DNA from: Thermoplasmata archaeon
GTDB lineage: Archaea; Thermoplasmatota; E2; UBA202; JdFR-43
NCBI GenBank assembly: GCA_021161135.1
Contig: JAGHBD010000088.1
Location: 1 to 16,821 of the forward strand
Reading direction: 5' to 3'
Length of the DNA: 16,821 nt
A program made the position numbers and the translations under genes. Of the stretch, positions 9,217-14,471 are shown in pieces; position 1 is the first letter of the stretch, and each line of letters begins with the position of its first letter. The notes below the pieces were generated by a model. It searched no databases, had not been told where the DNA came from, and saw only the letters and a program-made list of their open reading frames with translations.

Positions 9217-9720
9217 ATGGATTTGGAGGTGGTGTTTCCCCTGCTGAAAGAGATAAGAGATGAAGAATTAAGAGAAAAAGTAAAAAAATGTTACGAGATT
9301 GCAATGGAAAGAGGTGGATGGAATAATCTGGAAGAAATACCTTTTACTCTTCTTGTTCAGGATGCATATTCGTACGTGAAACATGTTAATAATGTTGCTA
9401 AGATGGCATATGAAATAGGAAGAGTAAGGGGAGACCTCGATATGGATATTTTGATAGCTGGTGCATTGCTGCATGATGTGGGCAAGCTGCTGGAATATGA
9501 AAAGAGAGATGGAAAGGTTGTTAAATCTGATTTTGGAAAATATATTCGCCACCCTGTTTCTGGGGCGGCAATAGCCATGGAGGTAGGGCTGGACGAAAAG
9601 ATAGTGAATATAATAGCAGCTCATTCCAAAGAAGGAGAGTTTGTTGAAAGATGCAAAGAAGCGATTGTTATTCATCATTGTGATTTTATTGATTTTGAAA
9701 TTGTGAGGGGAGAAAAATGA
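9217..9720 (+). CDS. HD-domain phosphohydrolase
   Basis: A soluble protein of 167 residues with the complete HD metal-binding pattern: H56, H86-D87 (LLHDVGK), H112 (RHPVSGA), H136 (AAHSKEG) and a terminal H153-H-C-D156. HD proteins hydrolyse phosphate esters of nucleotides or other metabolites, or act as phosphodiesterases. The spacing resembles the short predicted HDIG-type hydrolases of archaea. The substrate is not readable. Its TGA overlaps the ATG of the CitD-CitE gene (ATGA, 9717-9720), so the two are translationally coupled. This is the main hint that they belong to one pathway. ATG 9217 has no clear ribosome binding site. Confidence 0.82.
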   Translation: MDLEVVFPLLKEIRDEELREKVKKCYEIAMERGGWNNLEEIPFTLLVQDAYSYVKHVNNVAKMAYEIGRVRGDLDMDILIAGALLHDVGKLLEYEKRDGKVVKSDFGKYIRHPVSGAAIAMEVGLDEKIVNIIAAHSKEGEFVERCKEAIVIHHCDFIDFEIVRGEK

Positions 9721-10844
9721 AGATTATGGAAGAAGCGGTTGCGGGAACAGAAAATAAGAGAGACTGTATAGTTAGGGTAAAGCCTGGAGAAGGTAATGTG
9801 ACAATTAAGAGCAAAACAGGATGGATGTTTGAAGAACATATAAAAGATATTGTTGGTAAAAGACTCGAGGAGATAGGGATAGAGGCGGATGTTGAAATAC
9901 AGGAGAGTGGGGCTATCGATTATGTAATCATGGCACGCTTAGAGGCGGCACTAAGTAAAGCAATAAGGGAAGAAATCCCAGATAAGAAGGCGAGGCGTGG
10001 GAAAACATCAAAAGATAGAATGAGGAGGAGCAGGCTTTATGTTCCAGGGAATAATCCTCGTTTCATAAATAATGTGGCAGTATATGGCTGCGATTGTACA
10101 ATTCTTGATCTCGAAGACTCTGTGACTGTTGAACAAAAACACGATGCCCGCTATTTAGTGAAAAATGCATTGAAAGAAATGGATTTTGGAAATGCAGAGA
10201 TATGGGTGAGAATAAACAAGGAAATGGCGAGGGAAGATTTGGCAGTTATATCATATGGAAATCCCCATGGACTTTGCATTCCAAAAGTGGAAAGCAGAGA
10301 AGACATAGAAGTCATTGAAAAAATAATGGCAGAAGCCAATCTTGATTGTCACCTCATGCCAATTATAGAAACTGCTAAGGGAATAGCAAATGCTAAAGAA
10401 ATAGCGAATGCAAGCGATAAAATAGTTGCCATTGCCTTTGGTGCAGAGGATTATACGAGAGATACCGGGGCTAAAAGAACCTGGGAAGCTTTGCTCTATC
10501 CAAGAAGCCAGATAGTTGTGGCGGCAAAGGCGGCAGACATTCAGGCACTCGATACGATATATCCAAATATAGAGGATAATGAGGGATTGAGGGAGGAAAC
10601 AATGAAAATAATTGAACTTGGTTTCGATGGAAAGGGAGCTATACATCCTGGCCAGATAGAAATCATTCATGAATGCTTTATGCCATCGCAAGAAGAAGTA
10701 GAGGAGGCAAAGAAGATTATTGCTGCCATAGAGGAAGCGAAGAAAAGTGGTGAAGGAGTGGCGACGCTTAATGGGAGAATGATTGACTTACCGGTGGAAA
10801 AGAAAGCAAGAAGGATACTTAAACTTGCAGAAATGTACAAATAA
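9717..10844 (+). CDS. Fusion of citrate lyase acyl carrier (CitD-like) and citrate lyase beta subunit (CitE-like) domains
   Basis: The protein has 375 residues. Residues 1-90 align by eye with citrate lyase gamma chain CitD: AVAGT near the start, then GAIDYVIMARLEAAL against CitD's GALDCxLRARLEALL. Residues 102-375 are a CitE/HpcH-type lyase: RSRLYVPGNN at the entry, LDLEDSV, the Mg ligands E of IIETAKG and D of AFGAEDYTRD, and the family-typical FDGKGAIHPGQ near the end. CitE splits citryl- or related acyl thioesters to acetyl thioester plus a keto acid. In CitD the serine of GTLES carries a phosphoribosyl-dephospho-CoA group; here the aligned residue is Lys14 (AGTENKRD), with no serine nearby. 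No citF, citC, citX or citG is present. It may use free CoA thioesters (citramalyl-, malyl-CoA) instead. Confidence 0.85.
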   Translation: MKIMEEAVAGTENKRDCIVRVKPGEGNVTIKSKTGWMFEEHIKDIVGKRLEEIGIEADVEIQESGAIDYVIMARLEAALSKAIREEIPDKKARRGKTSKDRMRRSRLYVPGNNPRFINNVAVYGCDCTILDLEDSVTVEQKHDARYLVKNALKEMDFGNAEIWVRINKEMAREDLAVISYGNPHGLCIPKVESREDIEVIEKIMAEANLDCHLMPIIETAKGIANAKEIANASDKIVAIAFGAEDYTRDTGAKRTWEALLYPRSQIVVAAKAADIQALDTIYPNIEDNEGLREETMKIIELGFDGKGAIHPGQIEIIHECFMPSQEEVEEAKKIIAAIEEAKKSGEGVATLNGRMIDLPVEKKARRILKLAEMYK

Positions 10845-11931: not shown

Positions 11932-13218
11932 TTATTCTTCTACAATTCTTTTCGCTTTTCCCTCGCTTCTTGGCAATGTATTTGGCTTAACTATTTCAAC
12001 CGGAATCCTTAAATTCAATATTGTGTAGATTTCCCCCTCAATTTTTTCTGCCAATTCGTCAAGATTCCCTTCTTTATATCTCTCTTCTGTGGGTTCTACT
12101 CTGACAATGAGCGTCGTCATTTCCTTCTCCTTTTTCTTTACAAGTTGATAGTTCCCGCTCACTCCCTCAACTTTCATCATTGCCTCCTCAATCTGGCTCG
12201 GGAAAACAATAACTCCTTTAACCTTCATCATGTCATCGCTCCTTCCTTTTATACGTGTCTGTATAGGCAAAGTACGTCCGCAATCGCACGGCTCTTCAAT
12301 ATATCCTGCTATATCCCTCGTCCTAAAACGAATCGCTGGAAAAGCTTCTTTCGTCAATGTTGTAAAAACAAGCTCTCCCTCCTCTCCCGGCTCTAAACGC
12401 TCACCTGTTTTGGGATCTATAATTTCTGCAAGGAAATGGTCAGCATTTATATGGAGTTTTTTTTCCTCGCATTCTGTGACAACACCTGGCCCTATTATTT
12501 CAGTCAATCCATAATGTTCATGGGCAACTATACTCCATGTTTCTTCTATTTTTTTCCTCATCTCATCGCTCCATGCCTCCGCCCCAAAAAGCCCGAGACG
12601 GAGTTTGAAATCTTTGTTTGGCTCGAAACCCATTTGTTTCGCTACTTCTGCCATATATAAGGAATAAGAAGGGGTGCAGGCAAGTGCTGTTGTTCCAAAA
12701 TCTTTCATTATGTTAATCTGCCGTTTTGTGTTGCCAGAACTCGTAGGTACAACCAAAGCCCCTATTTTCTGTGCACCTTTTTCAAAACCATGAGCGCCAG
12801 TAAATAAACCATAGCCATATGCATTCTGCAATACATCTCCTTTCCTTAAACCATTAGCCCATAAAGAACGGGCCATCACCTCCGCCCATACTTCCAAATC
12901 ATTTTTTGTATATACTGCTACAACTGGTTTTCCGGTTGTGCCCGAAGAAGCATGAATTTCAACACAATCTTCAAGCTGCACGCACAGCAGGCCAAAAGGA
13001 TAATAATTGCGAAGTTCATCCTTTGTCAAAAAGGGTATTTTTTCCAAATCATCCAGACTTTTTATGTCATCTGGCTTCAAACCAGCCTCATCAAACTTCC
13101 TATGATATATCTCGTTGTTTTCATAAGCATGCTTTACAATTTTTTTGAGACGGGAAAGTTGCAATTCCTTCAAATCCTTTAAAGGCATTGTCTCTATTTT
13201 TTCATCCCAGAATTTCAT
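11932..13218 (-). CDS. paaK: Phenylacetate-CoA ligase (PaaK)-like acyl-adenylate enzyme
   Basis: An AMP-forming acid-CoA ligase of 428 residues, the typical PaaK length. The phosphate-binding loop SSGTTGKP is at 91-98, the adenine/acid-site motif YGLTE at 236-240, and the RTRD arginine-aspartate hinge at about 299-302. A C-x-C-G pair at 311-314 is typical of PaaK relatives. The catalytic Lys of the C-terminal domain lies in EGKAKRI (421-423). It activates an aryl- or acyl-carboxylate, classically phenylacetate or indoleacetate, with ATP and CoA. ATG 13218 has a TATA box 25 bases upstream, so it may be a leaderless message of its own even though larA lies only 35 bases upstream on the same strand. 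The exact acid is unknown. Confidence 0.88.
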   Translation of the reverse strand: MKFWDEKIETMPLKDLKELQLSRLKKIVKHAYENNEIYHRKFDEAGLKPDDIKSLDDLEKIPFLTKDELRNYYPFGLLCVQLEDCVEIHASSGTTGKPVVAVYTKNDLEVWAEVMARSLWANGLRKGDVLQNAYGYGLFTGAHGFEKGAQKIGALVVPTSSGNTKRQINIMKDFGTTALACTPSYSLYMAEVAKQMGFEPNKDFKLRLGLFGAEAWSDEMRKKIEETWSIVAHEHYGLTEIIGPGVVTECEEKKLHINADHFLAEIIDPKTGERLEPGEEGELVFTTLTKEAFPAIRFRTRDIAGYIEEPCDCGRTLPIQTRIKGRSDDMMKVKGVIVFPSQIEEAMMKVEGVSGNYQLVKKKEKEMTTLIVRVEPTEERYKEGNLDELAEKIEGEIYTILNLRIPVEIVKPNTLPRSEGKAKRIVEE

Positions 13219-13253: not shown

Positions 13254-14471
13254 TTATTGGAGGGTGGCGAGTGTTGTTGAAGCATGAGGAGACGCCAGAA
13301 TTTTTACTTTTTCTCCATGCCTCTCATAAATTTTATCGAGGATTTCATCACCATCTATTTTTTCCATTCTGAAATGAGCAACAAGCTCGCTGTCCATATC
13401 TGTAACCATATAAAGTTTTACTTTCTCTGTTGCTTTCAACATGTAATATACTTTGTGCTTGCCCATTATAAATTTCTTCATTAAATCCTCCTTTATTTCT
13501 TCGCTACTTCCATATTTTCCCATTTCATTATAGAATTTTTCACTTCCATGCCCTTCTTTACATTGGGCTATAAGCACAATAGTCCCTCCTTCCTTGACAA
13601 CGTCTATAACTGTCTGTATGGCTTTCATGGCTTGATATAAATTTATATCATGGGGGAAGCCATCTGCAGCTATTATGGCTGCCTCCACTTTGTGAGGCAC
13701 ATTCACTCTATACATTTCATCGACCAGTTGTGCTCCCTTCCTTAACACTTCCTTATGATTCCCTGCAAAAGCACCAACTATTTCATGCTTTCCATTCATA
13801 ACAACATTTAGGCAAAAATCTACGCCCACAATTCCAGCAGCCTCCTCCATGTCTTCATGAACTGGGTTTCCATCAAGTATTCCAAATCTTGCTTTCTCAT
13901 GAAACATTCTCTTATGATTTGCTTCTATCGTTATTTCCGTAGCCACACCAGGTAAAACACTTTTCCTTCCCCCTCCATAGCCAGCAAAATAATGGTATTC
14001 TACATCTCCAATCAAAATTTTGGCATCTGCATTGGCAAAAGCTGCATTGAAAAAGAGAGGTGTTCCAAAGCTTGTTACCCCGTAATCGACAAATTTTGCA
14101 TCTTGGCTGTGGCTGAGCCATTCATAGCTGTTTGCTATTTCTTTTCCCAGCAATTCCTCTGCTTCCTTTTCATTTACAGGCACATGTGTTCCAGTTGCAA
14201 AAATTATCCTTACATTACCCTTTATTTTATCCAGCAAATGCGGAAGAATTTTTTTGGTTGGGCATGGACGAGTTTTGTCATCAACAACAATCGCAATTTT
14301 TCCCTTCAATTTTTTAAGTATTTTCAAATTTGCTGGTTCATTCAGTGCTTTTTCTATAATTTGCTCCTCATTTTCTGCCTTTTTTTCTTTTGCCTCTACG
14401 ACTTTAACCAAATTTTTTTCTGGAATATCAATAACTATTTTTTCCTTGCCATATGGGAATGAAACCTCCAT
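13254..14471 (-). CDS. larA: LarA-family nickel-dependent 2-hydroxyacid racemase
   Basis: A cytosolic protein of 405 residues. Every catalytic position known from Lactiplantibacillus plantarum LarA has a counterpart: D65/R68 (VVDDKTRPC), H96 (ATGTHVP), H160 (YHYFAGYGGG), K170 (GGRKSV) and H186 (EANHK). The intervals 160-170-186 equal the reference intervals 174-184-200. The Lys binds the nickel-pincer (NPN) cofactor, and the His residues and nickel carry the hydride during racemisation. The genes making the cofactor (larB, larC, larE) are not in this window, so they must lie elsewhere or the protein must use another cofactor. LarA relatives racemise lactate and other 2-hydroxyacids, including aromatic ones, which fits the neighbouring aryl-CoA ligase. 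ATG 14471 has a TATA-like box 22 bases upstream. Confidence 0.83.
   Translation of the reverse strand: MEVSFPYGKEKIVIDIPEKNLVKVVEAKEKKAENEEQIIEKALNEPANLKILKKLKGKIAIVVDDKTRPCPTKKILPHLLDKIKGNVRIIFATGTHVPVNEKEAEELLGKEIANSYEWLSHSQDAKFVDYGVTSFGTPLFFNAAFANADAKILIGDVEYHYFAGYGGGRKSVLPGVATEITIEANHKRMFHEKARFGILDGNPVHEDMEEAAGIVGVDFCLNVVMNGKHEIVGAFAGNHKEVLRKGAQLVDEMYRVNVPHKVEAAIIAADGFPHDINLYQAMKAIQTVIDVVKEGGTIVLIAQCKEGHGSEKFYNEMGKYGSSEEIKEDLMKKFIMGKHKVYYMLKATEKVKLYMVTDMDSELVAHFRMEKIDGDEILDKIYERHGEKVKILASPHASTTLATLQ

Follow-up and report, generated by a model that had tools for sequence, protein, structure and literature searches.

Fused CitD–CitE proteins without the prosthetic-group serine: a putative citrate lyase that would work with free acetyl-CoA

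The citDE gene of a Thermoplasmata archaeon encodes a CitD-like carrier domain fused to a CitE lyase domain, and together with a separately encoded CitF it probably (at roughly 0.7 by our estimate) forms an ATP-independent citrate lyase without a covalently bound prosthetic group, in which free acetyl-CoA would be a dissociable cofactor and the CitD domain a scaffold, perhaps also a CoA clamp. Textbook citrate lyase relies on a covalent CoA-like arm and dedicated biosynthesis genes. We observed the fusion itself, the loss of the attachment serine and its replacement by a basic residue, the presence of citF, no detectable citX, citG, or citC, and aconitase-family and dehydrogenase partners.

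The citDE fusion and its attachment loop

The fusion lies in a stretch of 16,821 nt, hereafter the window, with the following features relevant to the analysis:

9217..9720, + strand: HD-domain protein (PF01966, 50.2 bits), its last 4 nt shared with the start of citDE
9717..10844, + strand: citDE (P0001), fused CitD-like carrier domain and CitE lyase domain (ORF of 375 aa; Pfam and NCBIfam)
9717..9986, + strand: CitD-like domain, residues about 1–90 (PF06857; matched to MdcC 5vit_C by profile and by fold)
9756..9761, + strand: codons of Lys14 and Arg15, Lys14 being the prosthetic-group serine position in alignments
9963..10016, + strand: interdomain linker, residues about 83–100, without regular secondary structure between helix 68–83 and strand 105–110 of the AlphaFold2 model
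10017..10832, + strand: CitE lyase domain, residues about 101–372 (TIGR01588, 277.3 bits at 101–372)
10032..10040, + strand: Arg106-Leu107-Tyr108, with group-specific Arg106 and Tyr108 where canonical CitE has Met and Phe

On the opposite strand, the window also encodes a phenylacetate-CoA ligase-like AMP-binding enzyme (11932–13218; TIGR02155, 485.7 bits, below the cut-off of 646.3) and a nickel-dependent malate racemase-like LarA homologue (13254–14471; NF052593, 403.4 bits, below the cut-off of 500).

A reading made from the sequence alone (the sequence-only reading) had described a CitD-like domain fused ahead of CitE, and Pfam bears this out, placing PF06857 (ACP/CitD, 57.1 bits against a cut-off of 25.1) at residues 5–81 and PF03328 (HpcH_HpaI, 178.9 bits) at residues 104–311 of an ORF that was confirmed as real. 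The CitD half belongs to the carrier family by this sequence score and also by fold: modelled alone (pLDDT 82.1), the domain matches MdcC 5vit_C best among PDB folds (Foldseek E 5e-4, TM 0.67). A phmmer search of the PDB with the same domain gave no useful match. It scores below the CitD equivalog cut-off (TIGR01608, 51.2 vs. 63.5) and below that of PRK13253 (62.4 bits vs. 65). The best NCBIfam match of the CitE half is citE TIGR01588, below its cut-off of 443.4, and its acidic residues E218 and D245 align with canonical CitE, where they are present in all five sequences compared. An AlphaFold2 model of the whole fusion, built from a 38-sequence alignment, reached a pLDDT of 95.1 and a pTM of 0.91.

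Residues 7–16 read AVAGTENKRD in the window protein and AVAGTLESGD in Escherichia coli, so that Lys14 stands opposite Ser14. This placement of lysine at the prosthetic-group position, as the sequence-only reading had it, is common to an alignment anchored on E. coli CitD, an 18-sequence alignment including five canonical CitDs, and a profile alignment to MdcC 5vit_C, and an alignment slip was therefore rejected. In the last of these, whose top match is weak (E 0.058), position 14 falls on chain residue 25; the attachment serine of MdcC is Ser25 (PMC5534430, in excerpt). That reading had also found no serine within the segment, which holds for the attachment loop and fails for the first 100 residues, where Ser32, Ser64, Ser80, and Ser98 occur; Arg15 and Cys17 are further residues of this region. 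As a domain, the CitD half is still conserved, G10, D16, D68, and R74 being invariant in the 18-sequence alignment. A second, serine-bearing CitD in the same genome was rejected, as PF06857 matches there once.

Aligned Ser14 was present in 10 of 10 canonical CitD controls, from Gluconobacter, Peptoclostridium, Secundilactobacillus, Melissococcus, two E. coli records, K. pneumoniae, K. aerogenes, E. faecium, and Azospirillum. Eight of nine control stretches have an annotated citX or phosphoribosyl-dephospho-CoA transferase, the exception being K. pneumoniae, whose table shows citG; citG or triphosphoribosyl-dephospho-CoA synthase is likewise annotated in eight of nine, the exception being Peptoclostridium.

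Spread of the fusion and conservation at positions 14 and 15

Of 7998 candidates scored in a protein search, 4308 were relatives at E ≤ 0.001, and the 120 of these that were listed make up our protein set. Scanning of genome contigs found at least 562 stretches encoding a relative, not necessarily a fusion, and the best 80 were taken as the set of fusion loci. With the window these give 81 sequences; three loci lack the attachment loop, leaving 77 plus the window, or 78 readable fusions. By record titles, and hence depositors' labels, the best 80 of the at least 562 span about 15 groups at phylum level: Thermoplasmatota, Bipolaricaulota, Calditrichota, Neomarinimicrobiota, Latescibacterota, Krumholzibacteriota, Cloacimonadota, Zixiibacteriota, Riflebacteria, Planctomycetota, Acidobacteria, Anaerolineae, Ignavibacteria/Melioribacter, Atribacteria, Deltaproteobacteria, and one Methanomicrobia MAG.

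Among the 78 readable fusions (from the best 80 loci and the window), position 14 is Arg in 41, Lys in 29, Glu in four, Ala in two, and Pro and Gln in one each; Ser was found there in none of the 78, nor in any of 118 sequences of the protein set as listed. Because the fusion recurs in 80 loci, the best of at least 562, and position 14 is never Ser in those that are readable, we do not regard it as a product of chance. An assembly artefact or one-off event was likewise rejected, the fusion being found also in all three other genomes of the genus that were searched (in pieces in G003). A basic residue occupies position 14 in 70 and position 14 or 15 in all 78 of the readable fusions, and position 14 or 15 in 112 of 118 sequences of the protein set (matches listed). 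Within the CitD domain, only the column of an invariant Arg is more basic than column 14, against a background of 13%. What the fusions conserve at 14 or 15 is a basic residue, not lysine: with Lys at 14 in only 29 of 78, conserved lysine chemistry was rejected, and the new chemistry at lysine raised by the sequence-only reading is unlikely.

Six members of the protein set have neither Lys nor Arg at 14 or 15. Two of them (P0109 and P0113) are otherwise intact fusions, and the other four (P0060, P0074, P0076, and P0077) also lack the catalytic residues of the CitE half. Together with L058 6154–7263 (G010:C58), these four are degenerate CitDE paralogues missing both the catalytic residues and the basic residue, and by their sequences they are possibly pseudo-enzymes.

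Replacement of the serine extends to CitDs that are not fused. Three stand-alone archaeal CitDs encoded beside citE and citF have R14 (G010 and G015) or K14 (G020, in which Ser13 adjoins Lys14), and those of G010 and G015 pass TIGR01608 (68.5 and 70.4 vs. 63.5). Searching with the stand-alone archaeal CitD yielded no more than 13 relatives.

The CitE half and CitF also carry residues that distinguish them from the canonical enzymes. Arg106 is present in 116 and Tyr108 in 117 of 121 sequences of the protein set (matches listed), where nine of nine canonical CitEs have Met and Phe, respectively; the protein set gives the fair figure here, since the 83/83 obtained for the genome set is biased by a scan pattern that contained both residues. 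In a CitE-domain tree rooted at its midpoint, the canonical CitEs were not separated from the others. The nine canonical CitFs group in a single clade (support 0.975) and have Gly (E. coli Gly392) at the position of His393 of the archaeal CitF, a histidine shared by all 65 noncanonical CitFs aligned.

CitF, recurrent neighbors, and prosthetic-group genes

The sequence-only reading had noted the lack of citF, which is true of the window and not of the genome: citF is encoded at G000:C103:1471–2856, on another contig than citDE, with a PF04223 score of 555.4 bits, and its product passes the citF equivalog TIGR01584 (629.5 vs. 501.45). In the best 80 of at least 562 loci, many of which end at contig ends, citF lies no more than 200 nt from citDE in 50 and no more than 3 kb from it in 66. 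Nine of the 14 loci without citF nearby are Thermoplasmatota relatives of the window. Among 59 relatives, the archaeon itself included, citF was found in 21 of the 23 genomes with a CitD domain, the two without a detected citF being G003 (66% complete) and G036 (87% complete), and in none of the four with a CitE-like protein and no CitD domain.

The sequence-only reading had also called for a genome search for citC, citX, and citG, having seen none in the window; none was found in the 87% complete assembly either, so that only citF came to light. CitX, CitG, and CitC were found in none of the 59 relatives (own genome included), 25 of which are ≥90% complete with ≤5% contamination. CitX and CitG were likewise found in none of 49 further genomes of unstated completeness, drawn from 50 of 67 candidate loci. 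Positive controls were matched in E. coli for CitX, in E. coli and four archaea for CitG, and in seven bacteria for CitC.

The archaeal citF overlaps an aconitase-family (LeuC-type) gene by 4 nt, and contig C85 carries an aconitase small-subunit (LeuD-type) gene together with the single Iso_dh of the genome. A Bipolaricaulota locus (L082) has citDE, citF, HD, LeuC, LeuD, and IDH in one run, so that all six of these genes are also present in the archaeon, over three contigs. Of the best 80 loci, 50 have an HD homologue, 38 have a LeuC homologue, and 19 have an IDH, and citF, HD, LeuC, and IDH occur together in 16. A second LeuC–LeuD pair of the genome (L166 17582–19332, G000:C43) lies apart from the citF-linked one. 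HD relatives adjoin citDE or citF, or IDH and aconitase genes, or citF and citryl-CoA lyase-like genes (L065 and L068).

The last of these arrangements is a module of HD, citF, and a citrate-synthase-like citryl-CoA lyase at L065 6303–12101 and L068 2401–5275, followed at L065 by LeuC, LeuD, and IDH. These are class relatives or paralogous loci in which CitF passes its cut-off. The L068 citrate-synthase-like protein exceeds the cut-offs of subfamily models for citryl-CoA lyase (294.5 vs. 212 and 286.6 vs. 245), and that of L065 has the same best family and scores below the cut-off (206 vs. 245). No CitD or CitE match was found at either place, and with a citryl-CoA lyase-like protein beside CitF in their stead, this type of CitF is evidently able to partner a CoA-thioester lyase.

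Proposed reaction, rival readings, and comparison with known systems

Isolated subunits of canonical citrate lyase reportedly act on CoA thioesters in vitro (work of Dimroth and Eggerer in 1975). CitF-type transferases are family II enzymes, which work through a ternary complex without a covalent enzyme adduct (PMC5534430, in excerpt), and free CoA thioesters are what the characterized CitE-like enzymes cleave (PMC3832036, in excerpt). Taken together, these properties make a citrate lyase using free acetyl-CoA chemically plausible, and such an enzyme would account jointly for the loss of the serine, for CitX, CitG, and CitC not being found, and for the retention of CitF. In the proposed cycle, CitF would move CoA from free acetyl-CoA onto the tricarboxylate (acetyl-CoA + citrate → citryl-CoA + acetate), and the CitE domain would split citryl-CoA into oxaloacetate and acetyl-CoA, the latter going back into the cycle, for a net reaction of citrate → oxaloacetate + acetate. 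If CoA is free in CitDE–CitF, retention of CitD requires a role for it, predicted to be that of a scaffold or bridge joining CitF and CitE, as MdcC bridges the malonate decarboxylase complex (PMC5534430, in excerpt). We infer the free-CoA chemistry, this scaffold role, the CoA clamp, cleavage rather than synthesis as the direction, and the exact substrate.

The former attachment loop, now basic, may grip the phosphates of free CoA noncovalently; the recurrent Lys or Arg at the old attachment point suggests, as a hypothesis, such an electrostatic hold. More tentatively, it is possible that in many phyla a salt bridge has taken the place of the covalent phosphodiester at Ser14, with Lys or Arg at or beside position 14 holding the 3'-phosphate of free CoA and the carrier acting as a reversible CoA-binding domain that would pass citryl-CoA from CitF to CitE. 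Such a salt-bridge carrier may be the state ancestral to the covalent arm.

A carrier that keeps a covalent modification, made by an unknown enzyme at Ser15 (in the fusions that have it), Cys17, or Lys14, appears quite improbable. Ser15, which the window protein lacks, occurs in 45 of the 78 readable fusions, and only 22 have no Ser anywhere in positions 11–16 (20 of those that do have it at the Thr11 position), so some members of the family may have their attachment serine at a shifted position; Cys17 occurs in 58, the window included, and the loop surroundings are kept, with D16 in all 78 and G10 in 76. However, no candidate residue is universal, Ser15 being absent from 33 of the 78, Cys17 from 20, and Lys14 from 49, and neither CitX nor CitG was found in the 108 genomes searched. 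Canonical loops, moreover, read ESSD in seven of nine cases and ESGD in two; Ser15 next to Ser14 is thus normal there and needs no special role. A further suggestion of the sequence-only reading, a stand-alone acyl-CoA lyase, here a malyl- or citramalyl-CoA-type enzyme with a decorative CitD domain and independent of CitF, is very improbable given the citF of the genome and of nearly all CitD-domain relatives. The nearest solved folds to the fusion model are those of human CLYBL (with CoA) and of malyl-CoA lyases, and the separate contig of citF would suit such an enzyme, but the close linkage of citF and citDE in most of the best 80 loci and the lack of citF in the four relatives with a CitE-like protein and no CitD domain speak against it. 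The RipC model gives 203.7 bits, below both its cut-off of 375 and the CitE score of 277.3, itself under cut-off, and with a carrier domain and citF present the protein falls outside the RipC/CLYBL-type stand-alone lyases.

A more serious alternative concerns the substrate: the same free-CoA lyase may act naturally on homocitrate (or 2-methylcitrate), which we consider unlikely. This version would join 2-oxoglutarate and acetate to 2-oxoadipate via homoaconitase and homoisocitrate dehydrogenase. It is raised to a serious alternative by three observations. The aconitase-family neighbors in all four scanned clusters of the Melioribacter/Phycisphaerae type (L116, L126, L132, and L140) pass the homoaconitase model TIGR00139 (733–877 vs. 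529.9), these being bacterial, single-chain proteins inside citDE/citF clusters; the dehydrogenases of L065, L082, L105, L116, and L140 and the archaeal Iso_dh match best, all below cut-off, to the methanogen homoisocitrate dehydrogenase AksF2; and MmgE/PrpD proteins occur in three of three clusters scanned for them. The genome also has no citrate synthase match, as is the case in 13 of the 16 genomes examined from its family (its own among them), and two of the three same-family matches are short and lie inside ORFs of about 620 aa; however, a reductive route from 2-oxoglutarate to citrate would need no citrate synthase either. Against homocitrate, CitF passes a citrate lyase model, TIGR01584, and at G010:C30 the aconitate hydratase passes its equivalog (995.5 vs. 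612) and the dehydrogenase is best matched, below cut-off, to isocitrate dehydrogenase. Given these neighbors of the stand-alone R14 CitD, CitE, and CitF, citrate fits best at that locus.

If lyases without the arm and the arm genes are widespread, annotation may misjudge citrate cleavage in uncultivated lineages, and comparison of Ser14 with Lys/Arg14 forms would be a simple test of why the covalent arm evolved. We found no account of a CitDE citrate lyase that is fused or lacks the serine in a search of mainly open-access literature, nor in the passages of PMC5534430, PMC9802188, PMC3832036, PMC3534657, PMC9196870, and PMC11237513. In these passages, a carbon-fixation survey excluded ordinary citrate lyase from its analysis (PMC9802188), and a survey of archaeal fusions has "citrate lyase" in its reference list only (PMC11237513). 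The Melioribacter roseus genome paper, in excerpt, reports no ATP-citrate lyase and leaves open "another enzyme" filling the gap (PMC3534657). Both citDE and citF are present in a MAG labelled M. roseus (L116).

The canonical ATP-independent CitDEF (EC 4.1.3.6; E. coli, Klebsiella, and lactic acid bacteria) has in common with the present system a TIGR01584 CitF, a CitE-type barrel with catalytic acidic residues, and the CitD fold. In contrast, CitD and CitE are fused here, Ser14 is replaced by Lys or Arg, CitX, CitG, and CitC were not found in the genomes searched, CitF lies outside the clade of nine canonical sequences and has His393, and an HD protein, aconitase-family proteins, and (homo)isocitrate-type dehydrogenases are recurrent neighbors. 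A Peptoclostridium locus (L154), inferred to be of the citramalate lyase type from its place beside methylaspartate mutase, shares the CitD/E/F architecture and differs in having the aligned Ser14, citX, and citC. CLYBL, malyl-CoA lyase, and RipC differ from the fusion in having no CitD domain, and they are not known to be part of a CitF complex. They share with it the barrel fold, and free CoA thioesters are their substrates (PMC3832036, in excerpt). MdcC/MdcA (PDB 5vit and 5vj1) have in common the carrier fold, with position 14 as Ser25, and the family II transferase logic (PMC5534430, in excerpt), whereas MdcC keeps its serine and arm and has a decarboxylase as partner. The L065 and L068 clusters share the HD protein and a CitF with His393 that passes TIGR01584, and L065 also shares LeuC, LeuD, and IDH; they differ in that C–C cleavage would fall to a PRK06224-type protein instead of CitDE. 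By Ser14 and CitX/CitG, CitDE–CitF stands apart from the canonical citrate lyases, and it probably functions like one.
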